Part shown: piece after piece, positions 9,635-62,541 of the stretch
Layout of the letters: each line of letters opens with the position of its first letter
Position numbering within the stretch: position 1 is the stretch's first letter
Program-made: the position numbers and the translations under genes
Notes under the pieces: generated by a model
Database searches by the model: none
What the model was told of the DNA's origin: nothing
The model's input: only the letters and a program-made list of their open reading frames with translations
From: Clostridiales bacterium
Lineage (GTDB): Bacteria > Bacillota > Clostridia > Christensenellales > Aristaeellaceae
Assembly (NCBI GenBank): GCA_015056055.1
Contig: SVHC01000002.1
Span: forward strand, 62,001-126,000
Reading direction: 5' to 3'
Length of the DNA stretch: 64,000 nucleotides

Positions 9635-9659
9635 TTGATTATAGAGAGGAAATCGCACT

Positions 9660-10742: not shown

Positions 10743-10744
10743 TC

Positions 10745-39778: not shown

Positions 39779-41416
39779 ATGAAAGCCTGTGTTATTCAGC
39801 CGTATTACTCATTTGATTATAAGGAAAATGACAGATGCTTTGAAGAAATGGTCGCGCTTCTTGATCAGTGCGACGAAAGCATGGATATTATTGTGCTGCC
39901 GGAATACTCCGATATTCCTGCAGACCAGCCGGATAAGGCGCATTTTGATGCTTCTATTGAAAAATACAATGGTATTATCATGGAAAAGGCGAAGGCGGCT
40001 GCCATTCGCTGCAACGCGATTGTTTTTGTGAATGCCGGATATAAAACAGAATCCGGCTGGCGGAATACGACTCATGCGATTGACAGGAAGGGAAATATTG
40101 TGGGTCGCTATTTCAAGGCACATCCGGCTCCCAGTGAAGTTAAAGGCGATGAACTGGGCGGAATGGGCATGGATGTTACATACAGCTATGAATATGCCGA
40201 TCCGTATGTAATTGAGATTGAAGGCATCCGATTTGGCTTTATGACCTGCTATGATTTCTATTTCTATGAGGCATTTGGACGCATTGCAAGGGAAAATATC
40301 GATGTGATCATTGGCTGCTCGCATCAGCGCACCGATACGCACGAAACGCTGGATATGCTGCACAGGTTCCTGTGCTATCACACCAATGCATGGCTTGTGC
40401 GCTCGTCTGTATCGCTTGGTGAGGAGTCGGAAATCTGCGGCTGCAGCACCATCGTTTCCCCGGCGGGTAAGGTTCTTGTTGACATGAAGAGCAAAGTGGG
40501 ACTTGGCATTGCTGAAATCGATCCGAAGGAGAAACACTATAAAGCTGCCGGATTCAAGGGCGCACAGAAAGCGCACTATGAGTACATTGAGGAAGGACGC
40601 CGCCCGTGGCTGTATCGAAACAGCGGAACCGCTATTGTTCCCGGCGACGCGGTAATGAAATATCCCCGTATTTGTGCGCACCGCGGTTTTTCTACGGTTG
40701 CGCCGGAAAACAGTATGCCGGCATTTGGAGCGGCGCTTTCGCTGGGAGCGGAAGAAATCGAATTTGACCTGTGGCCTACGAAGGATGGGGAAATTGTATC
40801 CTGCCATGATGATACGCTGGAACGCGTGAGCACCGGTGAGGGCAAGATTTACGAAAAGACACTGGCTGAGCTGCAGGAATACGATTTCGGCATCAAATTC
40901 AGCGAGGGATATAAGGGCCTCCGCATTGTTCGCTTTGAGGAGATCCTGCAGAAATTCTCGGGTCACTGCATTATGAACGTTCATATAAAGCCCACTTCCT
41001 ATACGGATCCCTATCCGCAGGAAAGCATGGAGAAAATTGTTGCACTTATCCGCAAGTATGACTGCGCAAAACACTGCTATCTGATGCTGGAACCCGATCA
41101 TCATATCACTCAGTTCAAGGAATATGCGCCGGACATCCCGATTTGTGTGGGTCAGCTTTTTGACAGACCGTGGGAAATTGTCGACCGTGCCATTGAACTG
41201 GGCGCACAGAAAGTGCAGTTCTTTAAGCCCTATTTCACGCAGGAAATGGTGGATAAGGCACGCGCACACGGAATTATTTGCAATGTGTTCTTTTCCGATG
41301 AAGTGGAAGAGGCAAAGCAGTTTATTGACATGGGAATGGATACGATCCTGACCAACAATTATCTGGAAATCTCCAATGCTCTGCGCCCGTATATCAAAGA
41401 GAAGATGGGTAAATAA
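39779..41416 (+). CDS. Carbon-nitrogen hydrolase fused to glycerophosphodiester phosphodiesterase
   Basis: A 545-residue two-domain protein. Residues 1-285 are a nitrilase-superfamily amidase with the triad Glu42 (LPEYS), Lys113 (YFKAHPAP) and Cys157 (MTCYDF). Residues 296-535 are a GDPD domain with HRG at 301-303, PENS, EIEFDL and CHDD, all catalytic positions intact, and are similar to the separate GDPD at 31.3 kb. The join is in frame with no stop or frameshift, and no good internal start lies at the boundary. A combined activity on an N-acylated phosphodiester (for example an acyl-ethanolamine lipid) is imaginable but unproven. AGGAGGG precedes the ATG. There is no signal peptide. Confidence 0.88.
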   Translation: MKACVIQPYYSFDYKENDRCFEEMVALLDQCDESMDIIVLPEYSDIPADQPDKAHFDASIEKYNGIIMEKAKAAAIRCNAIVFVNAGYKTESGWRNTTHAIDRKGNIVGRYFKAHPAPSEVKGDELGGMGMDVTYSYEYADPYVIEIEGIRFGFMTCYDFYFYEAFGRIARENIDVIIGCSHQRTDTHETLDMLHRFLCYHTNAWLVRSSVSLGEESEICGCSTIVSPAGKVLVDMKSKVGLGIAEIDPKEKHYKAAGFKGAQKAHYEYIEEGRRPWLYRNSGTAIVPGDAVMKYPRICAHRGFSTVAPENSMPAFGAALSLGAEEIEFDLWPTKDGEIVSCHDDTLERVSTGEGKIYEKTLAELQEYDFGIKFSEGYKGLRIVRFEEILQKFSGHCIMNVHIKPTSYTDPYPQESMEKIVALIRKYDCAKHCYLMLEPDHHITQFKEYAPDIPICVGQLFDRPWEIVDRAIELGAQKVQFFKPYFTQEMVDKARAHGIICNVFFSDEVEEAKQFIDMGMDTILTNNYLEISNALRPYIKEKMGK

Positions 41417-41451
41417 ACTGCGTGCGATATGCCGCAGATGAGGTGGCTTTT

Positions 41452-42828
41452 ATGCAGAAACGAAAGAATGATATTATCACGTATCTGGAAACAATACGCA
41501 TGGAAAACCTTGCCTATATTGCGGGGCTTTCCAATTATACGTCGCTTGAGGAGTACAGCCATCTGGTAAGGGAAGAGAACGGAAAAAAGATCTGGACGGA
41601 AGCATTGCAGCAGGCAATCAACGAGCATCAGATTGTTATGATTCCTTCTTCTGAAGACGTGTATTATCTGGATGGCTCCGTGCGCATTCCCTCCAACCGT
41701 CATATTGAGGCTGCGCCCGATGCGGTAATCCGACTGACGGCGGAAACCAAGGTACTCATGCTGCGCAATGAGAATACGCTGGATGGAACGCATGCACCTT
41801 TTTCGGACGAACACCGCAATGTGAATGTGTCCATCAACGGCGGTCGTTGGGAGGAATCCAATACCGGGCGCCTGGGATACGGAAGCACCGGCAAGTATGA
41901 TGAGGAGCGTAGCTATTACGGCGTTTCCACCTGTATGCTGTTCAACAATATCGAGAATCTGACGCTTACCAACATGACATTTGTCTGCACAGCCGGATTC
42001 TCTGTACAGATGGGCAATGCAAAAAATGTCGTGATCGAAAATATCCGTTTTGAAAGCTGCTTTGCAGACGGAATCCATGTGAACGGCAATACCGAAAACC
42101 TGCTGATCCGCAATCTTTTCGGTGAGGTGGGTGATGATCTTGTTGCGCTCAATACCTATGACTGGCAGAATTCTTCTGTCAACTTTGGTCCCGGCAAAGT
42201 TATTTTTTGCGAGAATCTGCACTCTGCCCCGGGCAGCGGTTACAAGTGCATGCGTCTTGAACCGGGCATGTATATTTTTGATGACGGCTCGCAGGTGGAT
42301 TGCTCGCTTACAGATGTTGTTATCCGCAATATGAGCGGCGTTCTGACCTACAAGATGTATTACCAGACACCGTGCTATACGCTTGGAACCGATCCGGAAC
42401 GCGGCGATGCCGGCAGCATGGCCAATATATACTTTGAGGATATTGATATTGATTTGACCGGTCCCTGTGATGCATTTCCGGAATATCTGCAGTCTGACCC
42501 CGTGCGCGGTTGGTTCGGCGCGTTTGAAATGGGCTCCAATATCAAGTCCATCTCGTTTGAAAACATTCGCCTGACAACGTATCCGGAAAAATATCCGCTT
42601 TCGCGCATGATCGTGGTCGGTCCGAAATCTATCCGCGGCACCGATGCTGAGGTATTTGATCCTTATATCAGCAATACCGTGGAACTGATTGAGCTTAAGG
42701 ACATTTTTGTAAACGGTGAAAAGGTGCTGGATGCCGATAAGCTGATTCGTGTGACGAGCTTTGACGATGTAAACGGCGACGGAAAATCCAGCGGCAAGGG
42801 AACGCTTTGCAAAGTGAATCTGATTTGA
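41452..42828 (+). CDS. GH28-like polygalacturonase family protein (parallel beta-helix)
   Basis: A 458-residue right-handed parallel beta-helix protein. After an N-terminal helical part (1-55), repeated strands appear (FNNIENLTLTNMTF, GNAKNVVIENIRF, NTENLLIRNLF). The GDD at 227-229 matches the paired catalytic Asp of GH28, and G-SGYKCMRLEPG resembles the distal GxG/RxK region. It therefore probably cleaves galacturonosyl linkages in pectin or rhamnogalacturonan, but the outer catalytic His motif is not clearly seen. There is no signal peptide, implying action on imported oligosaccharides. GAGGTGG precedes the ATG; the ORF opening at 41422 has no site. Confidence 0.75.
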   Translation: MQKRKNDIITYLETIRMENLAYIAGLSNYTSLEEYSHLVREENGKKIWTEALQQAINEHQIVMIPSSEDVYYLDGSVRIPSNRHIEAAPDAVIRLTAETKVLMLRNENTLDGTHAPFSDEHRNVNVSINGGRWEESNTGRLGYGSTGKYDEERSYYGVSTCMLFNNIENLTLTNMTFVCTAGFSVQMGNAKNVVIENIRFESCFADGIHVNGNTENLLIRNLFGEVGDDLVALNTYDWQNSSVNFGPGKVIFCENLHSAPGSGYKCMRLEPGMYIFDDGSQVDCSLTDVVIRNMSGVLTYKMYYQTPCYTLGTDPERGDAGSMANIYFEDIDIDLTGPCDAFPEYLQSDPVRGWFGAFEMGSNIKSISFENIRLTTYPEKYPLSRMIVVGPKSIRGTDAEVFDPYISNTVELIELKDIFVNGEKVLDADKLIRVTSFDDVNGDGKSSGKGTLCKVNLI

Positions 42829-42841
42829 GAGGGGAATTACT

Positions 42842-43981
42842 GTGGAGAATAAAAAGCTTCGTGTGGCGCTGATGGGTCTTGGATTCGGCGGCGCATTCTG
42901 CGGTATTTATCGCGATCATCCCGATGTGGAAAGCATCAAAGTATTTGATACGGATCTGAAAAAATGTCAGCATTTTGTGAAAGAAGGCCTTGCGGATGGA
43001 TACTATTCCAGTTTTGAAGAGGCGCTCAATGATCCGGAATGCGATGCTATCCATCTGGTAACCCCGATTCCGCTGCATGCAGAGCAGACGATTGCTGTTC
43101 TCAATGCAGGCAAGCACTGCGCATGCACGGTTCCGATGGCTACATCCATCGAAGACCTGTATCGCATCGCTGAGGCAAAGCATCGTTCCGGCAAGAACTA
43201 CATGATGATGGAAACCACGCTGTACACCTACCAGTTCTTCTATGTGAAAGAAATGCTGGAAAGCGGCAAGCTCGGCCGTATCCAGTTCCTGCGCGGCAGC
43301 CATTATCAGGATATGAAAAACTGGCCGGAATACTGGATGGGACTTCCGCCCATGTGGTACGGCACGCATGCCATTGGTCCGATGGTTGCGCTTTCCGGTT
43401 CCCGAATCAAGCGCGTAAATGCCTTTGGTTCCGGCACGATGGATGAGGATCTTGTTCGCCGCTATGGCAATCCCTTCCCGGTGGAAACTGCGCTGTTTGA
43501 GTTTGAAAACGGTCTTAAGGGCGAGGCAACGCGCACTCTGTTTGAATGTGCACGCCCGTATCAGGAAGGCATGTTTGTGTACGGCAGCGATGCATGCTTT
43601 GAATGGGGCTATCGTGATGCGGATGATCCCTTCGTAACCACAATGTCACCGGTAGCAGAGGGTGAACGCGGCTCCATTGAGCACACTGCCACCGTGCAGA
43701 TGCCGAACTATTATCACTCCCTGCCGGAAGAACTGTGGAAACACACCGTCGGCGGCAATTTTGACCCGCTTAACCCGCAGGATTCCCTCAAAAAGGGCGC
43801 GGGCGGCGGACATCATGGCTCCCATCCGCATCTTGTGAATGAGTTTGTGCGCAGCATTATCGAGGAGCGCGAGCCCTGGATCAATGTGGCGCTCGGTGCG
43901 AATATTACTGCCGCAGGCATCTGCGCGCATCACTCTGCAATGCATGATGGCGCAGCCGTAATGGTGCCTGACATTCGATAA
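42842..43981 (+). CDS. Gfo/Idh/MocA family oxidoreductase
   Basis: A 379-residue NAD(P)-dependent oxidoreductase. The Rossmann domain starts RVALMGLGFGGAFCG, and a nucleotide-domain end is seen at HLVTPIPLHAEQTIAVLNAGKHCACTVPMATS, where the usual catalytic EKP Lys is replaced (CTVPMA). The GFO/IDH/MocA C-terminal beta-sheet domain follows (about 130-340). It acts on sugars or sugar acids; the pectin-type neighbours suggest a galacturonate or deoxy-sugar derivative. Loss of the EKP Lys makes ordinary dehydrogenase chemistry uncertain. GTG start with GAGGGGAA 6 nt upstream, 13 nt after the GH28-like gene. Confidence 0.85.
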   Translation: MENKKLRVALMGLGFGGAFCGIYRDHPDVESIKVFDTDLKKCQHFVKEGLADGYYSSFEEALNDPECDAIHLVTPIPLHAEQTIAVLNAGKHCACTVPMATSIEDLYRIAEAKHRSGKNYMMMETTLYTYQFFYVKEMLESGKLGRIQFLRGSHYQDMKNWPEYWMGLPPMWYGTHAIGPMVALSGSRIKRVNAFGSGTMDEDLVRRYGNPFPVETALFEFENGLKGEATRTLFECARPYQEGMFVYGSDACFEWGYRDADDPFVTTMSPVAEGERGSIEHTATVQMPNYYHSLPEELWKHTVGGNFDPLNPQDSLKKGAGGGHHGSHPHLVNEFVRSIIEEREPWINVALGANITAAGICAHHSAMHDGAAVMVPDIR

Positions 43982-44011
43982 GCATAACGCATTACCGAAA
44001 GGGAGATACAT

Positions 44012-46159
44012 ATGCGTCCCATAGAAAAATGGATCTGGCTTCCGAAATCCGACTTTCCGGACAGACAGGAAACGCGCTACAGTGAGCACGTAAAAACGCG
44101 GCGCATTGACAACTATACCGTTGCGGCGTTTAGGCGGAAATACTGCTTTGATAAGCCGATTCGTGAGGTCAGTCTGCGATTCAGTGGAGATACGGCTTTT
44201 GCATTGTATTGTAATCAAAAGCACATTGCAACCGGTCCTGCGCTGCCGGGCGGCGACTTTCTGGAATTATACACAGATGAACCGCTTCCGCAGCATTACG
44301 CAACGGAAGTGACGCTTACAGCGGAGGAATTTTCTTCCCTTGAAAGCGGAACACTGGAATTCTATGCGCAGGTGCGCATGATGCCCGCAAGGTGCTTTGA
44401 TTTCTCTCAGGGCCACGGCGGATTTTTCCTGACGGCGCATGTTTGGTTTGCGGATGGCACCAAAAAGGTTGTTCATACGGACAAAAGTTGGTCTGCACAG
44501 CATCTTTCAGCATACACTCTGCCCGGCTGCTATGACAACAGCGCAGAAGAAGCGAAAAGTGTGCCTGCGGAAGAAATCGTAAATATCTGGCATTGTCAAA
44601 CCGCGCCCATTCCGCCCTGCGTGGAAACCATTCTTACTCCGCAGGAGGGAAGCGAAATCGTAGTTCCTGCCGGGCAGAAAGTGGAAACGGTTCTGAACTT
44701 CGACAGGATTTATGCCGCGTATCTTATGGTGTCGGCAAAGACAAAGGCTCGCCTTGAAGTTACGACCTTCTGCCGTGAGATAAAAGAGAACGGAACGGTT
44801 ATGAAGTGCACTTTTGTCCGCGACGGAAACTACCGCGGACTTGAACTGCACAGCGCGGGAAATCTGCGGGTGGAGGCGGAGAACTTTGGCGATGAGGATG
44901 CGGTTCTTTCGCTGAATCTGATTGCTGCGCACTATCCTGTGGAATATTGCGCCGTAACCACCACGTCGGATGAAGAACTGAATCAGGTGCTGGACGTCTG
45001 CACGCATACCTTGAAATACTGCCGTCAGAGCATGCATCTGGACAGCCCCAGACACTGCGAGCTTCTTGCCTGCACGGGCGATTACTATGTGGAAAGCATG
45101 ATGACGGCGTTCACCTTCGGCGATATGCGCCTTGCTGCATTCGACCTGCGCCGCACGGCAGAACTTCTGCGCTATCGCGACGGTAGAATGTTCCATACGA
45201 CGTATTCGCTGATTTGGGTGCAGATGCTGTGGGATGTATACTGCCTTACCGGAGAAAAGCAGCTGCTTTCCGACTGTGAGGATGCGCTGGATTTCCTGCT
45301 CGACAGGTTCAGTACCTATCTGGGCGACAACGGAATTATTGAAACGCCGCCGGATTACATGTTCATTGACTGGCTCGTTCCGGACGGCATCAATATGCAC
45401 CATCCGCCCAAGGCGCTTGGGCAGACATGCATGAACATGTTCTATTACGGCGCGCTGAAAACGGCACTAAAGATTTATGCAGTTCTGGGCGAAGATGCCA
45501 TGGCAGATTTGCGAAAGGCACAGATGGATGCGCTGCATGATGCGGTCGAGCATGAACTTTATGATGCCCAAAGGCAGATGTTCTTTGAAGGACTGAACAC
45601 GCCTACGGAAGAAAAACGGATTGGGCACTGGATGCCGCAGAACGTGGAAAAACGCTATTACCGCAAGCATGCCAACATTCTGGCGGCGTATTTCGGATTC
45701 TTTGAACAGGAAAAATGCGCGGCGCTGCTTAAGAGAATCCTTGACGACGATACTCTCGGCGAAGTGCAGCCGTATTTTATGCATTTCATGCTGGATGCGG
45801 TTTACCGCAATGGTCTGCGTGAAAAGTACACGCGAAAAATTGTGGAACTGTGGAAGGAACCGGTGCGCGAATGCTCCAAGGGATTGGCGGAAGGGTTCTA
45901 TAAGCCGGATAAGAATTACGGCTTTGACCATAGCCACGCATGGGGCGGAACGCCTGCTTATGCAATTCCCAAAGCGCTTTCCGGAATCGAAATTCTGGAA
46001 CCGGGTTATAAAAAAATCCGCCTGAATCCGTCCCTTATGGGGCTGGAAACGGCGGATGTGCAGATTCCTACACCCTATGGAATGATCACGCTTTCGATGC
46101 GAGAGGGCGAGGAAAATGTGATTTCCGTTCCGGAAGAAATTGTCTTGGAAACAGAATAA
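44012..46159 (+). CDS. GH78-family alpha-L-rhamnosidase
   Basis: A 715-residue enzyme. N-terminal beta-sandwich domains (about 1-320) carry the early WIW and the RFSGDTAFALYCN stretch; the (alpha/alpha)6 barrel (about 325-635) has SPRHCELLACTGDYYVES in place of the GH78 consensus around CPRRERLGWTGDAQ, then DWLVPDG and a late SHAWGGTPAYAIPKALSG; a short C-terminal beta domain follows. The barrel Asp is conserved but the GDAQ tail is altered (GDYY), so it belongs to a divergent subgroup. It probably removes terminal L-rhamnose from plant oligosaccharides inside the cell. AAGGGAGA precedes the ATG. It ends the operon of 39.8-46.2 kb. Confidence 0.82.
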   Translation: MRPIEKWIWLPKSDFPDRQETRYSEHVKTRRIDNYTVAAFRRKYCFDKPIREVSLRFSGDTAFALYCNQKHIATGPALPGGDFLELYTDEPLPQHYATEVTLTAEEFSSLESGTLEFYAQVRMMPARCFDFSQGHGGFFLTAHVWFADGTKKVVHTDKSWSAQHLSAYTLPGCYDNSAEEAKSVPAEEIVNIWHCQTAPIPPCVETILTPQEGSEIVVPAGQKVETVLNFDRIYAAYLMVSAKTKARLEVTTFCREIKENGTVMKCTFVRDGNYRGLELHSAGNLRVEAENFGDEDAVLSLNLIAAHYPVEYCAVTTTSDEELNQVLDVCTHTLKYCRQSMHLDSPRHCELLACTGDYYVESMMTAFTFGDMRLAAFDLRRTAELLRYRDGRMFHTTYSLIWVQMLWDVYCLTGEKQLLSDCEDALDFLLDRFSTYLGDNGIIETPPDYMFIDWLVPDGINMHHPPKALGQTCMNMFYYGALKTALKIYAVLGEDAMADLRKAQMDALHDAVEHELYDAQRQMFFEGLNTPTEEKRIGHWMPQNVEKRYYRKHANILAAYFGFFEQEKCAALLKRILDDDTLGEVQPYFMHFMLDAVYRNGLREKYTRKIVELWKEPVRECSKGLAEGFYKPDKNYGFDHSHAWGGTPAYAIPKALSGIEILEPGYKKIRLNPSLMGLETADVQIPTPYGMITLSMREGEENVISVPEEIVLETE

Positions 46160-46198: not shown

Positions 46199-46209
46199 AT
46201 TGAAATGAC

Positions 46210-50298: not shown

Positions 50299-50323
50299 CG
50301 GCGGATGCGAAACATTCGCCGGT
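50299..50323. repeat. 25-bp hairpin repeat, copy 1
   Basis: A 25-bp sequence starting CGGCGGATGCG, able to fold on itself (CCGGCGAATG-type stem with one G-T pair), is repeated exactly at 50602-50626. The two bracket the terminator and the short MITE-like copy. Confidence 0.7.
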
Positions 50324-50601: not shown

Positions 50602-50626
50602 CGGCGGATGCGAAACATTCGCCGGT
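50602..50626. repeat. 25-bp hairpin repeat, copy 2
   Basis: Exact copy of 50299-50323, ending 4 bp before the -35 box of the GH106-like operon promoter, so it may affect expression of the array. The gap 50481-50601 has no recognisable gene. Confidence 0.7.
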
Positions 50627-50630
50627 GTTC

Positions 50631-50659
50631 TTGTGTTAAGTGGCAATCAATGCTATAAT
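50631..50659 (+). promoter_or_regulatory. Promoter of the four-gene GH106-like array
   Basis: TTGTGT (50631-50636), 17 nt, TATAAT (50654-50659) with TGC before it; the leader is about 30 nt. Confidence 0.7.
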
Positions 50660-50694: not shown

Positions 50695-53607
50695 ATGGAC
50701 CTTCTGACGAGAATTAAAGGGAATCTGACAGAATACCAGTCCATACCATTCTGGAGCTGGAATGACCGCTTGGAGTGCGAGGAACTCAGACAGCAGATCC
50801 GTGCGATGAAAGAAGCCGGAATCGGCGGTTTCTTTATGCATGCGCGCGGCGGACTTTCGACGCCGTACATGGGTGAGGAATGGTTTGAAGCGGTTGACGC
50901 TTGCATTAACGAAGCGGAAAAGCAGGGAATGCATGCCTGGTGCTATGATGAAAACGGCTGGCCGAGCGGGTTTGCCGGAATGAAGCTTCTGGAAGACAGT
51001 GCAAATTGGGTCCACTATATCACTTGCGAAAAGAAGGCGGAGTTTGACGGGGACGCCCTTGCGGTGTATGTACTGGAAGGGACGAGCCTGCGCCGCGTAT
51101 GGAAAAATGAGAATGCGGCAGAGTACATCTGCATTTATGACAAAACCAATAGTTCTGTGGTGGATATTCTGAATCCTGAAATCGTGCAGAAATTTTTGAA
51201 AGAAACGCACGAAAAGTATTATGAGCGCTTCGGGGATAAATTCGGCAAATCCATGCAGGGCTTTTTTACGGATGAACCGCAGTATTTCCGCCCGGATACG
51301 GGTTATTCGCCGATGGTAATCAAAGCATACCGCGAGCGATACGGCGAGGATATTCTCGATACGCTGGGTGCGCTGTTTATTGATTGCGATGAGGCTCCGC
51401 GTCTTCGATACCGTTACTGGCGACTGATGAATGAACTGTATATAAACGGATTCGTGAGGCAGGTATACGAGTGGTGCGATGCACACGGCTGCAAGCTGAC
51501 GGGCCATTCCGTTGAGGAAACCTGTATGCGCGGGCAGATGTATTGCAGCGCGGGCGTAATGCCGTTTTATGAGTACGAGCACATTCCGGGAATCGACAGT
51601 CTGGGGCGCGAACCGGATACGGATTGTCTGCCGAGACAGGTGTCATCCGTGGCACAGCAGCTTGGGAAAAAGCATGTGCTGACCGAAACCTTTGCCGGGG
51701 CAACCTGGGCGGTTACGCCGGTTGAACTGAAAAGAATGGCGGAATGGCAGTATGTAAATGGCGCGAATCAGATGTGCCAGCATCTGTATCCGTATTCCAT
51801 TCGCGGGCAGAGAAAACGCGACTGGCCTGCATTCTTCTCCAACCACTGCCCGTGGGTAAAAGATGGATTCCGCGCTTTCAATGACTATTTTACGACCATC
51901 GGATACATGCTTTCGGAAAGCCGGGAGGATGCAAAGGTTGCCGTTATCCATCCGATTCACGATTCCTATCTGGTTTATAAGCGGAACGAGCAGGATGGAA
52001 TCTTTGCTGCGGATGCGGTATTTGAGAAGCTGGTTGCAAAGCTTTCCGCCGCCGGAATCGTACATCATTATGTGGATGAATGGCTGCTTGAAAGGCATGG
52101 CGGCACAAACGGTGCAAAGCTTCGGATGGGAAAGTGTGAATACGAATATGTTGTTCTGCCCGAAATGGATACCATTGACAGGAATACGGCATGTGTGCTG
52201 AAAGAGTACCTTGCAAACGGCGGAAAGCTGTATCTGGAAGGGAAAGCCCCAACGATGATTGAGGGTGAAAAAGCCGATCTTTCCTTCCTGAAGAGCAATA
52301 TTGCTTTCGAGGACCTGCGCTTCGGACGTGTGCGCGTTGAGGAAAAAGAAACCATCCTGCGCTATACCGTCCGCGAGGCGGAATTCGGCGATTTTGTATA
52401 TGCCGTAAACCTTGATACGCAAAAGATATGCACCTCAAATCTGCGTATCCGTGCAAAGGGAGCAAAACTCTTTAATGCCATGGAACGCAGATATGAACCG
52501 GTATATTTTGAGAAGGACGGAGAGGACATTATCGTTCCCTTGTCGCTGGAGCCGGTTGAGTCCTGCATTCTGATTCTGGATGATGATGCTTTGCCCGCGC
52601 AGAAAAAAGAAACAGCGCAGATAAAAACAATTCTTCCGGAAAAGGCAAAAGTAATCGCACGGAGTGAGAATATTCTGGTTCTGGATACGGTTGCACTTTC
52701 CTATGACGGAGAGACGTTTGAAGAAAATCTGCCGGTAATGCTGGTTTCCGACAGGCTCCTGCGCGAAAAGACGAACAGAACCATCTATCTGAAATATTGC
52801 TTTAAGGCGGAAGAACTTCCGAACCGGATTCGCATTGAAAAAGAAAAGATGGGAACAAAACGTGCATGGTTCAACGGAGCGGAAATCCAATTCTGTGATT
52901 TAGGCACTCTGGATGCAGCGTTTGTAAGTGCGGATATTGCAGGCAGCGTAAAGCCGGGATTCAATGAACTACTCTTGGAAATTGACTATTACCAGGAAAA
53001 ACGTACATACGATATTTTCAACGATTTTTATTATGATCATACCGGAACGACGGAGAGCCTCGTGAATTGTCTGAGTTATGATACGGATATTGAAAATGTG
53101 TACGTGATGGGCGATTTCGCCGTATATGCTGCGGGCTTTGCGGAAGGTGAAGAGCTGATTACAAAAACGCCTTTCGTGATTTCGAAAGAAAAAGAAACTG
53201 TTCATCCGGCATGCCTTGCCGAGGAGGGATATCCCTTCTTCGGCGGCAGAATCACGCTTGAAGTTGAATTTGAAGCGGAAGGAAACGAAAGGGAAATCCG
53301 GCTTCCGGGCAATTACCATGCGGCAAAAGTTCGCGTGAATGGTAGGAATGAACAGCTCCTCTTGTTCGGTAAAAAAGCAAATGTGGAAGGCATGCTGCAA
53401 AAAGGAAAAAACAGCCTTGTGATAGAACTGATCACCGGATGCAGAAATCTGTATGGGCCGTTCCATGTGCGTGAAGAAGGTAAACTGGTGCTGGCGATTC
53501 CGGAATCCTATTCGGGATACGGAAAATGGAAGGATCATGCGGAAGAATACTATACGCCGGATTACAAGATCGAAAAGCTTGGCGTAAATGCTGTGAAACT
53601 GATTTAA
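50695..53607 (+). CDS. GH106-like putative alpha-L-rhamnosidase, array copy A
   Basis: A 970-residue protein without signal peptide. It starts with the Glyco_hydro_106-type opening (IPFWSWND at 17-24, then GIGGFFMHARGGL and WCYDENGWPSGFAGMKLL). The barrel region contains GFFTDEPQYF, KLTGHSVEE, LTETFAGATW and QMCQHLYPYS; a flavodoxin-like middle segment (YVVLPEMDTID) and C-terminal beta-sandwich domains (about 690-960) follow. GH106 enzymes cleave alpha-L-rhamnosyl linkages in pectin side chains; activity here is inferred. Copy A differs from the others at several active-region positions (WAVTPVELKRM, NGANQMCQ). GGGGAGAAG precedes the ATG. First gene of a probable four-gene operon. Confidence 0.78.
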   Translation: MDLLTRIKGNLTEYQSIPFWSWNDRLECEELRQQIRAMKEAGIGGFFMHARGGLSTPYMGEEWFEAVDACINEAEKQGMHAWCYDENGWPSGFAGMKLLEDSANWVHYITCEKKAEFDGDALAVYVLEGTSLRRVWKNENAAEYICIYDKTNSSVVDILNPEIVQKFLKETHEKYYERFGDKFGKSMQGFFTDEPQYFRPDTGYSPMVIKAYRERYGEDILDTLGALFIDCDEAPRLRYRYWRLMNELYINGFVRQVYEWCDAHGCKLTGHSVEETCMRGQMYCSAGVMPFYEYEHIPGIDSLGREPDTDCLPRQVSSVAQQLGKKHVLTETFAGATWAVTPVELKRMAEWQYVNGANQMCQHLYPYSIRGQRKRDWPAFFSNHCPWVKDGFRAFNDYFTTIGYMLSESREDAKVAVIHPIHDSYLVYKRNEQDGIFAADAVFEKLVAKLSAAGIVHHYVDEWLLERHGGTNGAKLRMGKCEYEYVVLPEMDTIDRNTACVLKEYLANGGKLYLEGKAPTMIEGEKADLSFLKSNIAFEDLRFGRVRVEEKETILRYTVREAEFGDFVYAVNLDTQKICTSNLRIRAKGAKLFNAMERRYEPVYFEKDGEDIIVPLSLEPVESCILILDDDALPAQKKETAQIKTILPEKAKVIARSENILVLDTVALSYDGETFEENLPVMLVSDRLLREKTNRTIYLKYCFKAEELPNRIRIEKEKMGTKRAWFNGAEIQFCDLGTLDAAFVSADIAGSVKPGFNELLLEIDYYQEKRTYDIFNDFYYDHTGTTESLVNCLSYDTDIENVYVMGDFAVYAAGFAEGEELITKTPFVISKEKETVHPACLAEEGYPFFGGRITLEVEFEAEGNEREIRLPGNYHAAKVRVNGRNEQLLLFGKKANVEGMLQKGKNSLVIELITGCRNLYGPFHVREEGKLVLAIPESYSGYGKWKDHAEEYYTPDYKIEKLGVNAVKLI

Positions 53608-53624
53608 TGGCAGGAGGAAAATGA

Positions 53625-56543
53625 ATGGATCTTCTGACAAGACTGAATGGCAATCTGACGGAATATCAGTCTATCCCGTTCTGGAGCTGGAATGATTGGC
53701 TGGAACCCGAGGAACTCCGCAGGCAGATTCGCGCGATGAAGGATGCCGGAATTGGCGGCTTCTTCATGCATGCGCGCGGCGGTCTTTCCACGCCTTATAT
53801 GGGAGCGGAATGGTTTGCAGCAGTGGATGCATGCATTGACGAGGCTGAAAAGCAGGGAATGCATGCCTGGTGCTATGACGAGAACGGCTGGCCGAGCGGT
53901 TTTGCGGGCATGAAGCTTTTAGAGGACAGTGCAAACTGGGTTCACTATATCACCTGCGAAAAAAAGGCGGAATTCGATGAAAATGCACTTGCGGTCTATG
54001 TGCTGGAAGGAACGAGCCTGCGCCGCGTATTGAAGGCAGAAAATGCCGGGGAATACATCTGCATTTACGATAAAACCAATTCTTCCGTAGTTGATATTCT
54101 GAATCCTGCGGTTGTGCAGAAATTCCTGCAGGAAGTACACGATCAGTATTATGAGCGCTTTGGCGACAAATTCGGCAAGGCGATGCAGGGCTTTTTCACG
54201 GATGAGCCGCAGTATTTCCGCCCGGATACGGGCTATTCGCCGATGGTGCTCAAGGCATACAGCGAACGATACGGCGAGGATATCCTCGATACACTCGGCG
54301 CGCTGTTTATCGATTGCGATCAGGCTCCGCGTCTGCGCTACCGCTATTGGCGGCTGATGAATGAACTGTACACCAACAGCTTTGCAAAGCAGATTTATGA
54401 CTGGTGCGACGAGCACAACTGCAAACTCACCGGACACTCGGTAGAAGAGTGCAATATGTGCGGCCAATTGGAGTGCTGCGCAGGCGTAATGCCGTTTTAT
54501 GAGTACGAACACATTCCGGGCATTGACAGCCTTGGTCGCTGGATTGCTTTGTCGGAAAGCATGCCGAGACAGGTGTCCTCTGTGGCACAGCAGCTGGGCA
54601 AAAAGCATGTTCTGACGGAAACTTTCGGCGGCGCGACGTGGTCGGTTACGCCGAAGGAGCTGAAGTGGATTGCCGAATGGCAGTATGTTCACGGTGTAAA
54701 CCAGATGTGTCAGCATCTGTATCCCTACTCGGTCCGCGGACAGAGGAAGAGGGACTATCCGGCATTCTTCTCGGAGCACAATCCGTGGGTGAAGGAAGGC
54801 TTCCGTGCTTTCAACGATTATTTCACGGCGATTGGCTATATGCTTTCCGAAAGTCGTGAGGATGCAAAAACTGCCATCATTCATCCCCTGCATGCATCGT
54901 ATTTGGTTTACAGCCAGAAGAACATCTGGCCGACCGATGCGCTGGACAAGAAGTTTGAAAAACTGGTAGAAAAATGCGGTGCTGCCGGAATGGGTCACCA
55001 TTACATTGACGAGTGGCTTTTGGAACGCCATGGCAGCGTAAACGGTGCAAAATTCCGCATGGGAGATTGCGAATACGAATATGTTATTCTGCCCGAAATG
55101 GCAACTATCGATGCAAATACCGCAAAATTGCTCAAGGAATACCTTGCAAACGGCGGAAAACTCTATGTGGAAGGCGCAGCACCCACGATGATCGAGGGTG
55201 AAGCAGCGGACCTTTCATTCCTCAAGAGCAATATTTCCTTCGATGAAATGTGCGCAGGCCGCGTTCGCATCGATAAAAAGGATACGCAGGTGCGTTACAC
55301 CGTGCGCGAAGCGGAGTTCGGCGACTTTGTATATGCCGTAAATCAGGACAATGAAAACGGTTACAGCGTAAAACTCGCAATCCGCGCGAATGGCGCAAAA
55401 CTTTTCAACGCCATGAAGCGCAGATATGAACCCGTTTACTTTGAAACGAATGGGGAAGACATCATTGTGCCTCTGAATTTCGGTCCTGCCGATTCCTTTA
55501 TCCTGATGCTGGATGATGAGGCGGTTTCCGCACCTTTGAAAGAGGAAAAAGAAGCACATTTCATCGCTGCCGAGAATGCAAAGGTGATTTCCTGCGGAGA
55601 AAATACGCTGGTTTTGGACAATGTTTCCCTTTCCTACGATGGAAAGAATTTTGAGGAAGCAGCGCATGTAATGGGTCTTTCCGACAGGCTTCTGCGCGAA
55701 AAGACGAACCGTACGCTCTACCTGAAATACGGCTTTACTGCCGATATCGTTCCGGAAAAGATTCGCATCGAAAAGGAAAAAATGGCGACGAAGCGCGCAT
55801 GGTTCAATGGACAGGAAATCGCATTCAACGATGAAGGCACGCTGGATAAGGCATTTGTAAGCGCGGATATCGCGGGAATGGTAAAGCAGGGCGAAAATGA
55901 ACTGCTTTTGGAAATTGAATATTATCAGGATGAGCATGTATACAACGTGTTCAACGACTTCTATTATGAACACAACTCCGCAACGGAAAGCCTGATCAAC
56001 TGCCTCAGCTATACGACGGATATCGAAGCTGTTTATGTAATGGGTGATTTCGGCGTATACGCCGGGGAAATCCGTGACGGTAAGGATATCATTGCTGTGC
56101 AGCCCGGATTCGTCATTGGGGCAAAAAATGAGAGCGTGCATCCCATGCGCCTTGTGGAGGAGGGGTATCCTTTCTTCAGCGGTGAAATGACGCTTGAGAT
56201 TCCCTTTGAAGCCAATGGTGATGAAACGATTCTGAGCATTCCGGGTATATACCATGTGGCGAAGGTATCCATCAACGGCGGCAGAGAAGAAATGCTGATG
56301 TTCGATAAGTTCATGGATGTAACGGAAATGCTGAAACAGGGTGAAAACATCCTCACCATAACGCTTGTTTCCAGCTGCCGCAATCTGTATGGTCCCTTCC
56401 ACCTGCGTGCGCAGAATAAACCGCATATTGTAGGACCCGATACCGGTACACGGTACGGCAAATGGAAGACGGGCGAAAATCTGGACTATTCTCCGGTGTA
56501 CATGCTGGAAAAATTCGGCGTGAACGGACTGGAACTTACCTGA
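53625..56543 (+). CDS. GH106-like putative alpha-L-rhamnosidase, array copy B
   Basis: A 972-residue paralogue of copy A with the same domain order. It is closest to copy A over most of its length (shared YFRPDTGYSPM, EGTSLRRV, GLSTPYMG). In the central segment (WSVTPKELKWIAEW, HGVNQMCQ) it instead agrees with copy D. AGGAGG lies 7 nt before the ATG at 53625, while an out-of-frame ATG at 53621 is ignored. The gap to copy A is 17 nt with no promoter or terminator. Confidence 0.78.
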   Translation: MDLLTRLNGNLTEYQSIPFWSWNDWLEPEELRRQIRAMKDAGIGGFFMHARGGLSTPYMGAEWFAAVDACIDEAEKQGMHAWCYDENGWPSGFAGMKLLEDSANWVHYITCEKKAEFDENALAVYVLEGTSLRRVLKAENAGEYICIYDKTNSSVVDILNPAVVQKFLQEVHDQYYERFGDKFGKAMQGFFTDEPQYFRPDTGYSPMVLKAYSERYGEDILDTLGALFIDCDQAPRLRYRYWRLMNELYTNSFAKQIYDWCDEHNCKLTGHSVEECNMCGQLECCAGVMPFYEYEHIPGIDSLGRWIALSESMPRQVSSVAQQLGKKHVLTETFGGATWSVTPKELKWIAEWQYVHGVNQMCQHLYPYSVRGQRKRDYPAFFSEHNPWVKEGFRAFNDYFTAIGYMLSESREDAKTAIIHPLHASYLVYSQKNIWPTDALDKKFEKLVEKCGAAGMGHHYIDEWLLERHGSVNGAKFRMGDCEYEYVILPEMATIDANTAKLLKEYLANGGKLYVEGAAPTMIEGEAADLSFLKSNISFDEMCAGRVRIDKKDTQVRYTVREAEFGDFVYAVNQDNENGYSVKLAIRANGAKLFNAMKRRYEPVYFETNGEDIIVPLNFGPADSFILMLDDEAVSAPLKEEKEAHFIAAENAKVISCGENTLVLDNVSLSYDGKNFEEAAHVMGLSDRLLREKTNRTLYLKYGFTADIVPEKIRIEKEKMATKRAWFNGQEIAFNDEGTLDKAFVSADIAGMVKQGENELLLEIEYYQDEHVYNVFNDFYYEHNSATESLINCLSYTTDIEAVYVMGDFGVYAGEIRDGKDIIAVQPGFVIGAKNESVHPMRLVEEGYPFFSGEMTLEIPFEANGDETILSIPGIYHVAKVSINGGREEMLMFDKFMDVTEMLKQGENILTITLVSSCRNLYGPFHLRAQNKPHIVGPDTGTRYGKWKTGENLDYSPVYMLEKFGVNGLELT

Positions 56544-56567
56544 AGATAAATAACGGGAGGAAAATAC

Positions 56568-59486
56568 ATGGATCTTTTGAACAGACTGAATGGAAACTTG
56601 ACGGAATATCAGTCGATCCCTTTCTGGAGCTGGAATGACAAACTGGAAGAAGAGGAACTGCGCAGACAGATTCGTTCAATGAAAGAAGCCGGAATCGGCG
56701 GCTACTTTATGCATGCGCGCGGCGGTCTGATGACCGAATACCTCGGCGAAGAATGGTTTGACGCCACGGCAGCATGTATTGACGAGGCGGAGAAGCAGGG
56801 CATGCATGCCTGGTGCTACGACGAAAACGGTTGGCCCAGCGGTTTTGCCGGCATGAAGCTTCTGGAAGACAAGGGCAACTGGGCGCATTACATTACCTGC
56901 GAAACGAAAGCAGGGTTTGATGCTGAGGCTCTGGGCGTCTATGTGCTGGAAGGCGAAAATCTTCGCCGCGTAAGTGCGGAAGAAAAAGCGGAGGAATACA
57001 TTTGCCTGTATGACAAGACCAATTCCTCTGTTGTTGATATTCTCAATCCCGAAATCGTTCGCAAATTCCTGGACGAAACACATGAAAAGTATTATGAGCG
57101 CTTCGGAGAATCCTTCGGCACGTATATGCAGGGATTCTTTACGGATGAACCGCAGTACTTCCGCTGGGACACTCCGTACACGCCCATGCTTCTTTCGGCA
57201 TACAAAGAACGCTATGGCGGGGATATCCTGGATACGCTGGGTGCACTGTTCATTGACTGCAAGCAGGCGCCGCGCCTGCGCTACCGCTATTGGAGACTGA
57301 TGAATGAGCTGTACACCAACAGCTTTGCAAAGCAGATTTACGATTGGTGCGATGAGCACAACTGCAAACTGACCGGCCATTCCATTGAGGAAAGCAGCAT
57401 TGACGGCCAGATGATGTGCTGCGCGGGTATCATGCCGTTCTATGAGTATGAGCATACCCCGGGCATTGACTGGCTGGGTCGCGGAATCGCCTCCGAAATG
57501 GCTCCCCGTCAGGTTTCTTCCGCTGCGCAGCAGCTGGGCAAAAAGCATGTTTTGACCGAAACCTTTGCCTGCGCGGGCTGGGATGTCTCTCCCAAAGAAC
57601 TCAAATGGATTGCCGAGTGGCAGTATGTGCACGGCGTAAACCAGATGTGTCAGCATCTGTATGCATATTCTGTTCGCGGTCAGCGAAAGCGCGACCATCC
57701 GGCGTTCTTCTCTGAGCACAATCCGTGGGTAAAAGCGGAGTTCCGCGCATTCAACGACTACTTTACGGCACTGGGCTATATGCTTGCAGAGAGCCGTGAG
57801 GAAGCCAATGTTGCGGTTATCCATCCCATGCGCAGCGCATATCTGACCTATAAGCACAGCAAGCCCAATCCGGCAATGCGTCAGCTGGATACTGCGTTTG
57901 TAAAGCTGGTGGAGGGTCTTGCTGCCGCAGGCATCGGTCATCACTATGTGGATGAATGGCTGCTGGCAAAACACGGCGGTGCAAACGGCGCAAAGCTGAA
58001 GATGGGTCTGCGCGAGTATGACTATGTTGTGCTGCCCGATATGGATACCATTGATGCAAATACCGTAGAAGTGCTGAAGGAGTACCTTGCAAACGGTGGT
58101 AAGCTTTGTGTTGCAGGCAGAATTCCGACGATGATCGAAGGCGAGGAAGCTGATCTTTCCTTCCTGAAGGGGAATATTACCCTTGCAGAACTGCAAAGCG
58201 GCCGCGTCAGCATCGATAAAAAGGATACAGCCGTGCGCTACACCGTGCGCGAAGCGGAGTTTGGCGACTTCGTATATGCAGTCAACCTTTCCATGAAGGA
58301 TGAGTTTGACGTAACGCTGCGCATCCGTGCAAAGGGCGCAAAGCTCTTTAATGCCATGGAGCGCAAGTATGAAGCGCTGTATTTTGAAACGGCTGGCGAC
58401 GAAATTATCGTTCCTGTGCACTTTGAAACGGGCGAATCGTATATCATCGTGATGGACGATGCTGCTGTGAGCGCGGCAAAACCGGCCGCCAAAGGCGCGG
58501 AAAAGGAACTTTCGCTGGATGCAAAGATCATTGCTGCTTCTGAAAATATGCTGCATATCGACGAAGTGCGCCTGTCCTATGACGGTGTGGAATATACCGA
58601 TGCAATGCCGGTGATGGCTGCATCCAATGAGCTTTTGCGCGGCAAGACCAATCGAACCGTATATCTCAAGTATGAATTCGAAGTCGAAAATGTGCCGGAA
58701 AAAATCCGTCTGGAACGCGAAAAGATGGGCGGCGTAAAGGCTTGGTTTAATGGGGCAGAAGTTGCATTTGCAGATGAAGGTACGCTGGACCGTGCATTTG
58801 TCAGCGAAAACATTGCAGGCAAAGTAAAGCAGGGCAAAAATGAGCTGGTTGTCCAGATTGAGTACTATCAGACGGAACTCGTTTACCATGTATTCAACGG
58901 CGTATTCTACGAACACTCCGATGCAACCGAGAGCATGCTCAACTGCACAAGCTATGTGACGGATATCGAAGCGGTTTACGTAATGGGCGATTTCGGCGTA
59001 TACGCAGAATCACTTGAAGCCGGCGAACGCAATACGATGATTGCAAACGGCCGTCAGTATATCGGTACGGCGAAGAAGCGGATTGCGATGAACAGCCTTG
59101 CTGAGAACGGTTATCTGTTCTTCGGCGGCGAGATGACTTTTGAGGTGCCGTTTGAGGCGAACGGAGATGAAAAGACCCTGACAGTTACCGGACGTCATGC
59201 GGTTGCTAAAGTGTCTGTAAACGGCGGCAAAGAGAAGCTTATGATGTTTGGCAACCATATGGATGTTGCAGGCCTTCTGAAGAAGGGAGAAAACACCCTG
59301 AAAATCACGTTGCTTTCCGGCTGCCGCAATATCTACGGTCCTTTCCATCAGCCTGATGTAGAACCGCTGGGCGTTGGTCCCGGCACCTTTGACCGCTATG
59401 GCCAGTGGGTGGACGGCAAATGCAAAAATTATGTGGACCGCTATTCCTTTGTGAAATTCGGTGTGGATAAGCTGATACTTGCATAA
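56568..59486 (+). CDS. GH106-like putative alpha-L-rhamnosidase, array copy C
   Basis: A 972-residue paralogue. It groups with copy D (YFRWDTPYTPM, LGVYVLEG, VTAACIDEAE-like context). It alone has FACAGWDVSP instead of FxGATWxVTP and LYAYS instead of LYPYS near the inferred active site, so its specificity may differ or its activity may be reduced. GGGAGGAAA precedes the ATG, and the gap to copy B is 24 nt. Confidence 0.78.
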   Translation: MDLLNRLNGNLTEYQSIPFWSWNDKLEEEELRRQIRSMKEAGIGGYFMHARGGLMTEYLGEEWFDATAACIDEAEKQGMHAWCYDENGWPSGFAGMKLLEDKGNWAHYITCETKAGFDAEALGVYVLEGENLRRVSAEEKAEEYICLYDKTNSSVVDILNPEIVRKFLDETHEKYYERFGESFGTYMQGFFTDEPQYFRWDTPYTPMLLSAYKERYGGDILDTLGALFIDCKQAPRLRYRYWRLMNELYTNSFAKQIYDWCDEHNCKLTGHSIEESSIDGQMMCCAGIMPFYEYEHTPGIDWLGRGIASEMAPRQVSSAAQQLGKKHVLTETFACAGWDVSPKELKWIAEWQYVHGVNQMCQHLYAYSVRGQRKRDHPAFFSEHNPWVKAEFRAFNDYFTALGYMLAESREEANVAVIHPMRSAYLTYKHSKPNPAMRQLDTAFVKLVEGLAAAGIGHHYVDEWLLAKHGGANGAKLKMGLREYDYVVLPDMDTIDANTVEVLKEYLANGGKLCVAGRIPTMIEGEEADLSFLKGNITLAELQSGRVSIDKKDTAVRYTVREAEFGDFVYAVNLSMKDEFDVTLRIRAKGAKLFNAMERKYEALYFETAGDEIIVPVHFETGESYIIVMDDAAVSAAKPAAKGAEKELSLDAKIIAASENMLHIDEVRLSYDGVEYTDAMPVMAASNELLRGKTNRTVYLKYEFEVENVPEKIRLEREKMGGVKAWFNGAEVAFADEGTLDRAFVSENIAGKVKQGKNELVVQIEYYQTELVYHVFNGVFYEHSDATESMLNCTSYVTDIEAVYVMGDFGVYAESLEAGERNTMIANGRQYIGTAKKRIAMNSLAENGYLFFGGEMTFEVPFEANGDEKTLTVTGRHAVAKVSVNGGKEKLMMFGNHMDVAGLLKKGENTLKITLLSGCRNIYGPFHQPDVEPLGVGPGTFDRYGQWVDGKCKNYVDRYSFVKFGVDKLILA

Positions 59487-59503
59487 AAGAAAGAGGGAAA
59501 AGC

Positions 59504-62422
59504 ATGGATCTTTTGAAACGGCTGCAGGGCAACCTTACGGAATATCAATCGATTCCCTTCTGGAGCTGGAATGACAAGCTGGATGCAGAAGAACTGCGCG
59601 AACAGATTCGCGCAATGAAGGCGGCCGGAATCGGCGGCTACTTCATGCATGCGCGCGGCGGATTGCAGACGGAATACCTGAGCGAAGAATGGTTTGACGT
59701 GACGGCCGCCTGCATTGACGAGGCTGAAAAGCAGGGCATGCATGCCTGGTGCTATGATGAAAACGGTTGGCCGAGCGGCTTTGCCGGAATGAAGCTTCTG
59801 GAAGATGAAGCCAACTGGGTTCATTATCTCACCTGCGAAACAAAAGCAGAATTTGACAGGGATGCGCTTGCGGTTTACGTACTGGAGGGCAATGACCTTC
59901 GCCGCGTGGGCGAGGAAGAAAAGGCGGAAGAATACATCTGCCTGTATGACAGGAAAAATTCTTCTGTAGTTGATATCCTCAATCCTGACATCGTAAGCAA
60001 GTTTATTACCGAAACGCATGAGAAGTACTATGAACGCTTCGGGGAATCCTTCGGCACCCATATGCAGGGATTCTTCACGGACGAGCCGCAGTATTTCCGC
60101 TGGGATACCCCGTACACGCCTATGATTCTTGGAGAATATAAGGAGCGTTACGGCGGGGATATCCTTGATACGCTTGGCGCGCTGTTTATCGAATGCAATC
60201 AGGCGCCGCGCCTGCGCTACCGTTACTGGCGGCTGATGCACGAACTGTATATCAATAACTTTGCAAAGCGGATTTATGAATGGTGCGAGGAACACAACTG
60301 CAAACTGACCGGTCATTCTATTGAAGAAAGCAGCCTTGATGGTCAGATGATGTGCAGCGGCGGCGTTATGCCGTTTTATGAGTATGAGCACATCCCGGGA
60401 ATGGATGCACTGTGCCGCGGAATCGCTTCCGAAATTGGACCGAGGCAGGTTTCTTCCGCTTCGCAGCAGTTGGGCAAAAAGCATGTAATCACGGAAACTT
60501 TCGGCGGTGCAACATGGTCTGTTACGCCGAAGGAACTCAAATGGATTGCAGAATGGCAGTATGTGCATGGCGTAAACCAGATGTGCCAGCATCTGTATCC
60601 GTATTCCATTCGCGGTCAGCGAAAGCGCGACTGGCCGGCATTCTATTCCAACCATTGCCCGTGGGTAAGGGAAGAATTCCGCGCGTTCAACGATTATTTC
60701 ACGACGCTGGGATATATGCTTGCTGAAAGCCGCGAAGACGCAAAGGTTGCGGTGATCCATCCGATGAGAAGCGCCTACCTGTATTTCAAACAGGCAAAGC
60801 CCAATCCCGAGGTCGGTAAGCTGAATGGCGCATTCTCAAAGCTGGTTGAATCCCTTGGCGCTGCGGGCATTGTTCATCACTATGTGGATGAGTGGCTGCT
60901 TGCGCGTCATGGCGGAGCAAACGGCGCGAAGCTGAAGATGGGTCTGTGCGAGTATGATTATGTCGTGCTGCCCGATATGGACACCATCGATGCAAACACG
61001 GTGGAAGTGCTGAAGGAGTATCTTGCAAACGGCGGAAAGCTCTATGTTGCAGGAAAACTTCCGACGCTGATTGAGGGTGAGGAAGCCGACCTTTCCTTCC
61101 TGCAGAGCAATATCACTTTTGAAGATTTGCAGGAAAGCCGCGTTGCGATTGATAAGAAAGACACTTCCGTGCGCTATACGGTGCGTGAGGCGGAATTCGG
61201 CGATTTCGTATTTGCGGTCAACCTTTCCATGAAAAAAGAGGTCGATGCCACGCTGCGCATCCGCGCGAAGGGCGCAAAGCTCTTTAATGCCATGGAGCGC
61301 AGATATGAACAGCTGCATTTTGTTGCAGACGGAGATTACATCCTTGTTCCGCTGCATTTTGAAACGGGCGAATCGTATATCATCGTAATGGATGACAATG
61401 CTGTAAGCTGCGAAAAGGCCGAGAAGGCCGAAACGGGAACAGAGCTTTCGCTGAATGCGAAGATTTTTGACATGACCGAAAACGTGCTCACAGTGGACTA
61501 TGTACGTCTGTCCTATGACGGCGTGGATTACAGTGAGCTGCTTCCTGTGATGGCGGTATCCGACATCATGCTGCGCGGCAAGACGAACCGCACGATATAC
61601 CTCAAATACGAATTTGAGGTTGAGGCTGTTCCGGATAAGATTCGCCTGGAACGCGAAAAGATGGGCGCAGTAAAGGCATGGTTTAACGGTGAGGAAGTTC
61701 TGTTTGGCGACAGAGGAACGCTGGATAAGTCGTTTGTAACGGAAAGCCTTGCAGGAAAAGTAAAGCAGGGCACAAACGAACTGGTTCTGCAGATTGAGTA
61801 CTATCAGCCGGAAGTGGTATACGACGTGTTCAACGGTGTGTATTATGAGCATTCCGGTGCTACGGAGAGCGTTCTCAACTGCATGAGCTATGTGACGGAT
61901 ATTGAGGCTGTTTATGTAATGGGCGACTTCGGCGTATATACCGATTCCATTGAAGAGGACGAAGATGGAATGCTGATTACGCCCTGCAGCCACCGCATCG
62001 GTAAGGCACAGTATGATGTTGCAATGAACGACCTTGCACAGGCAGGCTATCTGTTCTTTGGCGGTTCCATGACGTTTGAGATTCCCTTTGATGCAAAGGG
62101 AGATGAGAAGGAACTGATTGTTGCAGGTCGCCATCCGGTGGCAAAGGTATCTATAAACGGCGGCGAAGAAAAGACGCTGATGTTCGGCAATCGCATGAAT
62201 GTGGAAGGTATGCTGAAAAATGGTGCAAATACCATGCGTCTGACGCTTATATCCGGCTGCCGCAACATGTATGGTCCTTTCCATCAGCCCGAGGCGGAGC
62301 CGCTGGCGACTACGCCGGGTACTTTTGAACGCTATGGCAAGTGGGAAAACTTCAAGTGTCGGGACTATGTTGAACGCTATGCGTTTGCAAGGTTCGGTGT
62401 GGATAAAGTGGAACTGAGATAA
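59504..62422 (+). CDS. GH106-like putative alpha-L-rhamnosidase, array copy D
   Basis: A 972-residue paralogue, closest to copy C overall (ESFGTHMQGFF, YKERYGGDILDTLGALF). Around FGGATWSVTPKELKW it matches copy B, and YSNHCPWV matches copy A rather than B or C. It carries MDALCRGIASE and SGGVMPF where others have IDSLGR or IDWLGR and CCAGIMPF. GAGGGAAAA precedes the ATG, the gap to copy C is 17 nt, and a strong terminator follows, closing the operon. Confidence 0.78.
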   Translation: MDLLKRLQGNLTEYQSIPFWSWNDKLDAEELREQIRAMKAAGIGGYFMHARGGLQTEYLSEEWFDVTAACIDEAEKQGMHAWCYDENGWPSGFAGMKLLEDEANWVHYLTCETKAEFDRDALAVYVLEGNDLRRVGEEEKAEEYICLYDRKNSSVVDILNPDIVSKFITETHEKYYERFGESFGTHMQGFFTDEPQYFRWDTPYTPMILGEYKERYGGDILDTLGALFIECNQAPRLRYRYWRLMHELYINNFAKRIYEWCEEHNCKLTGHSIEESSLDGQMMCSGGVMPFYEYEHIPGMDALCRGIASEIGPRQVSSASQQLGKKHVITETFGGATWSVTPKELKWIAEWQYVHGVNQMCQHLYPYSIRGQRKRDWPAFYSNHCPWVREEFRAFNDYFTTLGYMLAESREDAKVAVIHPMRSAYLYFKQAKPNPEVGKLNGAFSKLVESLGAAGIVHHYVDEWLLARHGGANGAKLKMGLCEYDYVVLPDMDTIDANTVEVLKEYLANGGKLYVAGKLPTLIEGEEADLSFLQSNITFEDLQESRVAIDKKDTSVRYTVREAEFGDFVFAVNLSMKKEVDATLRIRAKGAKLFNAMERRYEQLHFVADGDYILVPLHFETGESYIIVMDDNAVSCEKAEKAETGTELSLNAKIFDMTENVLTVDYVRLSYDGVDYSELLPVMAVSDIMLRGKTNRTIYLKYEFEVEAVPDKIRLEREKMGAVKAWFNGEEVLFGDRGTLDKSFVTESLAGKVKQGTNELVLQIEYYQPEVVYDVFNGVYYEHSGATESVLNCMSYVTDIEAVYVMGDFGVYTDSIEEDEDGMLITPCSHRIGKAQYDVAMNDLAQAGYLFFGGSMTFEIPFDAKGDEKELIVAGRHPVAKVSINGGEEKTLMFGNRMNVEGMLKNGANTMRLTLISGCRNMYGPFHQPEAEPLATTPGTFERYGKWENFKCRDYVERYAFARFGVDKVELR

Positions 62423-62430
62423 TCCCAAAT

Positions 62431-62473
62431 AAAAAACGCCTTTCGGACGATATGCATCCGGAAGGCGTTTTTT
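62431..62473 (+). terminator. Terminator of the GH106-like array
   Basis: A 17-bp stem (62431-62447 with 62457-62473, one G-T pair) with a 9-nt loop; T6 closes the right arm. Confidence 0.9.
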
Positions 62474-62541
62474 GTGCATGTGAACGCGCTTTGGAAAGAA
62501 TGAGGGTTTGTGTGTGGGAAGGCGAAAACGCGATCAGAAGG

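Follow-up and report, generated by a model that had tools for sequence, protein, structure and literature searches.

A tandem array of four GH106-like genes in a Christensenellales bacterium, with one slowly evolving copy and three copies altered at the predicted active-site face

The stretch of DNA considered here, referred to as the window, comprises 64,000 nucleotides of contig SVHC01000002.1 (C40 in our numbering; 127,543 bases) from assembly GCA_015056055.1, a Clostridiales genome of 2.83 Mb in 80 contigs that is an estimated 95% complete. It harbours four intact open reading frames, genes A to D, which follow one another on the + strand, together span positions 50695-62422 and encode proteins of glycoside hydrolase family 106 (GH106). 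The array represents the expansion of a GH106 gene within one lineage: both family and fold have been described before, and what is particular to the lineage, within what was searched, is that the gene has been multiplied and an active-site loop rebuilt. On balance, and with only modest confidence, we lean towards the reading that one old enzyme (C) has been kept and three (A, B and D) retuned after tandem duplication of a single cytosolic GH106 gene. Copy number, tree, intact catalytic residues, predicted fold, rate asymmetry and the concentration of changes on the active-site face come directly from the analysis; activity, substrate, altered specificity, co-transcription and conversion are inferred.

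Gene A (50695-53607, 970 amino acids) is the fastest-evolving copy and gene B (53625-56543) its sister; gene C (56568-59486) is the slowest copy and gene D (59504-62422) its sister, and the last three each encode 972 amino acids. The intergenic gaps are 17, 24 and 17 nt, so that the codon counts and spacing given in an earlier note on this DNA, made from the letters and their open reading frames, are reproduced. Against the Pfam GH106 model PF17132, A, B, C and D score 59.9, 55.3, 54.5 and 55.5 bits (curated cut-off 29). The structure model of copy A (predicted local distance difference test, pLDDT, 93.8) has the (alpha/beta)8 barrel fold seen in BT_0986 and RHA-P, and its top VIA-align rows are 5mqm (28.2), 5mwk (27.7) and 6q2f (27.4), the next family standing at 21.2. 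The assignment to GH106 proposed in that note is thus borne out by the Pfam score, which took the place of a CAZy search, and by the fold; neither placed the proteins outside the family.

The catalytic residues indicate where in GH106 the four proteins may belong. The general base Glu331 aligns with E593 of BT_0986 and is invariant in all 83 sequences compared (79 outside relatives and A-D), as are Asp193-Glu194, which align through RHA-P with D458-S459 of BT_0986, and His271, which aligns with E538. Asp301, a candidate for the Asp that Ram106B proteins have in place of E561 of BT_0986, is invariant too, the alignment placing it one position off E561. BT_0986, the rhamnogalacturonan II (RG-II) alpha-L-rhamnosidase (PDB 5mqm, 5mwk), shows 12-18% identity in structural alignment, and the array conserves neither its catalytic acid E461 nor its calcium ligands S459 and E538. 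At the position of E461, Gln196 aligns through RHA-P, the Novosphingobium GH106 enzyme (PDB 6q2f) whose active-site motif TDSIE reads TDEPQ in A-D, and because this general acid is missing, the four proteins are not filed in the BT_0986-type branch. According to the available part of the source on Ram106B (PMC6828813), E461 occurs in BT_0986 and RHA-P but not in the Ram106B members of the family, and in these proteins (from Thermotoga, Caldicellulosiruptor and Thermoclostridium), as in A-D, Asp-Glu replaces Asp-Ser, His replaces E538 and the base Glu is conserved. The same part of that source describes Ram106B proteins of 116-121 kDa, without a signal peptide and proposed to be intracellular (PMC6828813). 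No hydrophobic N-terminal stretch was seen in A-D on inspection of the sequences, which agrees with the absence of signal peptides noted earlier and supports a cytosolic location. Judged by residue pattern and described features rather than by sequence identity or tree, A-D thus appear to be GH106 proteins that match the cytosolic Ram106B branch, and not the RG-II enzyme BT_0986, in their catalytic residues; with these residues intact all four copies are probably active.

The array has an origin within its own lineage. In a tree of A-D and 22 relatives, drawn from the 79 of 80 outside loci that were aligned (L039, with a shortened frame, was excluded), the four copies form a single clade, ((A,B),(C,D)), and none groups with a different distant homologue; the two nested steps support the two rounds of duplication and the two pairs proposed in the earlier note. 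The nearest outsider is the single gene of a sister species, on a 7.5 kb contig (locus L024) of 'Candidatus Alectryocaccomicrobium excrementavium', whose chicken-gut genus is placed in Christensenellales, family CAG-74, in the available part of its source (PMC8035907). In the one other genome examined from the genus of the window (G001, 83% complete), the gene lies at coordinates equal to those of L024, and the two were taken as the same record. Protein identity is 72.4% for A and B, 76.7% for C and D and 64.0-68.1% for the cross pairs; identity at third positions is 46-57%, so the copies are old at silent sites. The string YFRPDTGYSPM shared by A and B is derived, since the sister species reads YFRWDTPYTPV, close to the YFRWDTPYTPM of C and D. 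On this view, tandem duplication of a single cytosolic Ram106B-type gene would have taken place in the lineage of this species once it had split from the sister species, and each daughter would have been copied again to give the A-B and C-D pairs; gene order together with the tree suggests that the second step copied each daughter where it stood and did not involve copying a pair as a block.

Single copies prevail elsewhere. No second close copy adjoins the orthologue at the 80 outside loci, 51 of which are flanked on either side by 3 kb or more; L070 has a weak neighbour, and the sister-species contig extends only 1.9 and 2.75 kb beyond its copy, a P-type ATPase lying downstream. The 16 orthologues from gut and rumen Clostridia (L024-L040 without L039) match the array protein from end to end, with 46-60% identity to copy A, and differ from the array in having no second close copy adjoining and in keeping Gly337. 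Of 308 other genomes of the same family, 20 have a close copy of full length (44-67% identity to C), and none of the 20 has a second listed match above 40% identity; the search scored the two top-ranking candidates of each genome, and counts beyond two were therefore impossible. No description of a tandem GH106 array was met in the literature on GH106, Ram106B, rhamnosidase duplication or rhamnose in Christensenellales, among the titles and abstract openings listed.

The four copies have not diverged evenly. Counts of unique changes, with the sister gene serving as outgroup, are lower in C than in A (61 against 126), B (68 against 102) and D (46 against 70), and over the catalytic barrel (residues 1-410) the counts are 10 in C against 33 in B and 14 in C against 30 in D. 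Changes in the barrel fall preferentially on loops of the predicted active-site face (114 of the 410 residues, picked by the analyst from predicted strands) in A (20 of 45, Fisher p 0.013), B (16 of 33, p 0.008) and D (14 of 30, p 0.021), and not in C (6 of 17, p 0.58), for which 'derived' was defined slightly differently. Among the six array pairs, 29-33% of barrel differences lie on the face, compared with a mean of 16.8% (95th percentile 30%) in 95 pairs from other genomes with comparable divergence (30-110 barrel differences; sequences were reused across pairs, which are not independent), so that face differences are nearly twice as frequent in the array. Because A and B share changes and the face residues were chosen by the analyst, these tests count as support and not as proof.

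One altered loop directly follows the catalytic base. Codons 331-341 of gene A (51685-51717, + strand), comprising Glu331 and the loop behind it, read ETFAGATWAVT, and the corresponding stretches of B (54618-54650, +) and D (60494-60526, +) both read ETFGGATWSVT, whereas C (57558-57590, +) retains the ancestral ETFACAGWDVS; the sister gene likewise reads ETFACAGWDV beside its base. Among the 79 aligned outside relatives, Gly337 is found in all 79, Asp339 in 67 and Cys335 in 67, and it is this glycine that is replaced in A, B and D. Position 337 is Gly in five and Asn in two of seven distant paralogues in the same genome (a match at 14.4 bits was excluded from that alignment). As a DNA pattern, the altered loop occurs three times in the source genome and in none of the other 395 genomes in a 396-genome sample of the order. 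A reading in which C is the sole working copy and the other three are in decay or catalytically dead would fit both the slow, ancestral-like character of C and a changed loop so close to the base, but it is very improbable: all four frames are intact with their catalytic residues kept, the differences are clustered in particular loops of the face, and the proteins of B and D do not differ anywhere in residues 331-368; decay would preserve neither that clustering nor that identity.

Another explanation is dosage, with four copies of one function kept since more enzyme is useful and their sequence differences neutral. Short gaps, near-equal lengths and the retention of all catalytic residues would suit it, as would the tandem duplication of GH106-like genes elsewhere in the genome: contig C68 carries a second tandem pair (L161:4562-7909 and 7913-11050), distant GH106-like genes that are 61% identical to each other and about 30% to the array across the matched part. 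We nevertheless consider dosage improbable, given copies that differ at 23-36% of residues, a rate asymmetry between C and B or D that sits in the catalytic barrel, a concentration of differences on the active-site face that exceeds most controls, and the replacement in three copies of a glycine present in all 79 aligned relatives.

The loop type common to A, B and D runs contrary to the gene tree, which suggests conversion or convergence. Among 74 protein sites with a two-to-two split, 59 support AB|CD, 12 AD|BC and three AC|BD; the AD|BC sites are clustered, reaching a maximum of seven among 12 neighbouring informative sites (p 0.009; p 0.019 for nucleotides). In approximately unbiased (AU) tests, residues 1-240, 411-650 and 651-970 each reject AD|BC and AC|BD, residues 241-345 marginally favour AB|CD with nothing rejected, and residues 320-410 and 346-410 favour AD|BC with AB|CD not rejected (p 0.28 and 0.38). 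B and D, identical in protein over 331-368, are only 61% alike at third positions there. The pattern is suggestive of gene conversion between copies, which would be old if real, and the segment tests lean towards it without deciding.

If one enzyme was kept and three were retuned, copy C would retain the ancestral pocket and hence presumably the ancestral job, while in A, B and D the active-site face would have been the preferred place of change, the loop directly after the base included, probably so that further linkages or different adjoining sugars could be accommodated; old gene conversion may have carried this loop and adjacent stretches from copy to copy. The suggestion in the earlier note that the copies serve different rhamnosyl linkages is kept here as a proposal, to which the divergence of the active-site face lends indirect support. 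Several observations weigh against this account. A, B and D share their loop changes contrary to the gene tree, and convergence is possible; over residues 411-970 only A differs significantly in rate from C, being faster; some control pairs reach face shares of 0.30-0.38 (maximum 38%); measured from the sister gene, no more than 24% of differences in A, 22% in B and 21% in D lie on the face, with 14% in C; and the face residues depend on the analyst's choice. As regards substrate, searches of the 95% complete genome gave neither of the rhamnose isomerases RhaA (PF06134) and RhaI (TIGR02635), which speaks against rhamnose as a carbon source, and a selection of 20 neighbours at 12 of the 80 orthologue loci revealed no conserved glycan partner, glycosidase-type genes coming from four loci; neighbouring genes were consequently dropped as a guide to substrate.

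Cytosolic alpha-L-rhamnosidases acting on imported oligosaccharides or glycoconjugates are the most likely products of the array. The earlier statement that such enzymes remove L-rhamnose from complex pectin gained no support for A-D: A-D score 56.6-67.6 bits against the BT_4145 rhamnogalacturonan rhamnohydrolase model NF049897, far under its equivalog cut-off of 1300, their residues follow the Ram106B branch, and neither isomerase family was found. That these Clostridia proteins form a GH106-like branch releasing a sugar other than rhamnose is a further, unlikely, alternative; in line with it are the missing isomerases, the distant scores against characterised GH106 proteins, the lack of the BT_0986 catalytic acid and a single fucose-isomerase C-domain match in the genome. 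It is opposed by an L-rhamnose mutarotase family gene in the window, by GH78-type matches in the genome (16 of 17 rows over the cut-off) and by a residue pattern equal to that described, in the available part of the source, for four proven rhamnosidases (PMC6828813). The natural substrate of Ram106B itself is there said to be still sought, an oligosaccharide or glycoconjugate being proposed (PMC6828813).

A bolder version of the retuning account, which we hold only tentatively and regard as doubtful, would make the array a species-level generator of specificity. The rebuilt loop, having lost Gly337 and a nearby Asp, would have spread by conversion to three copies, the fourth keeping the old sequence, so that one operon could hydrolyse several related glycosides intracellularly. 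In addition, the conserved Glu194, which follows strand 4, and Glu331, on strand 7, occupy positions that correspond to the acid/base and the nucleophile of clan GH-A enzymes, so that this GH106 branch might be mechanistically unlike BT_0986.

Possible expression signals flank the array. A possible promoter upstream of gene A, TTGTGT-17 nt-TATAAT with an extended -10 (TGCTATAAT; 50631-50659, +), was read by eye, and a terminator-like hairpin (62429-62475; -27.1 kcal/mol, z -6.07), flanked on both sides by A/T tracts, lies 3′ of gene D. A purine-rich Shine-Dalgarno-like stretch precedes each of the four starts, and A-D are probably co-transcribed as one unit. The promoter and terminator reported earlier are readable, the hairpin being strong, yet a consensus scan of the region lists neither and gave no excess over shuffles (promoters 5 versus a mean of 13.0; terminators 16 versus 15.3). 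Given its A and T tracts, the hairpin may also terminate a convergent minus-strand gene. Upstream of gene A, a 25-base palindrome-like repeat occurs in exact copies at 50299-50323 and 50602-50626, bounding a 278-base stretch, parts of which are matched by fragments at 46206 and 46474 (90-91%); with its 25-base ends the stretch looks, from its sequence, like a small intergenic repeat element.

Upstream of the array stand genes for a thioredoxin-like and a 4Fe-4S/redoxin protein, and downstream, on the opposite strand, one for a phosphoribosyltransferase; for the immediate flanks scanned, this is consistent with the earlier description of an array lacking transporter or regulator. Tm1074, a Ram106B protein, is by contrast reported in the available part of the source from a co-regulated cluster with ABC transporters (PMC6828813). 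About 4.5 kb upstream, at 39779-46159, lie same-strand genes of glycan type: a frame at 39779-41416 that joins a carbon-nitrogen hydrolase domain to a glycerophosphodiester phosphodiesterase domain, a weak GH28 match, a Gfo/Idh/MocA oxidoreductase and a GH78-like gene. The GH78-like protein of the window was compared with that beside L025, and close kinship between the two was rejected. Outside the window, about 9 kb ahead of its start, contig positions 51811-52773 give a strong match of GH78 type (242 bits). The L-rhamnose mutarotase family gene is at 33345-33653, about 17 kb upstream of the array, with HAD hydrolase and URO-D family genes on either side.

With one conserved and several altered copies of a catabolic enzyme side by side, the array offers a clean natural experiment on the evolution of glycosidase specificity. 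The short list of active-face positions at which the copies differ makes the specificity residues of the little-studied Ram106B branch directly testable, and may aid the annotation of single-copy GH106-like genes in uncultured gut Clostridia.
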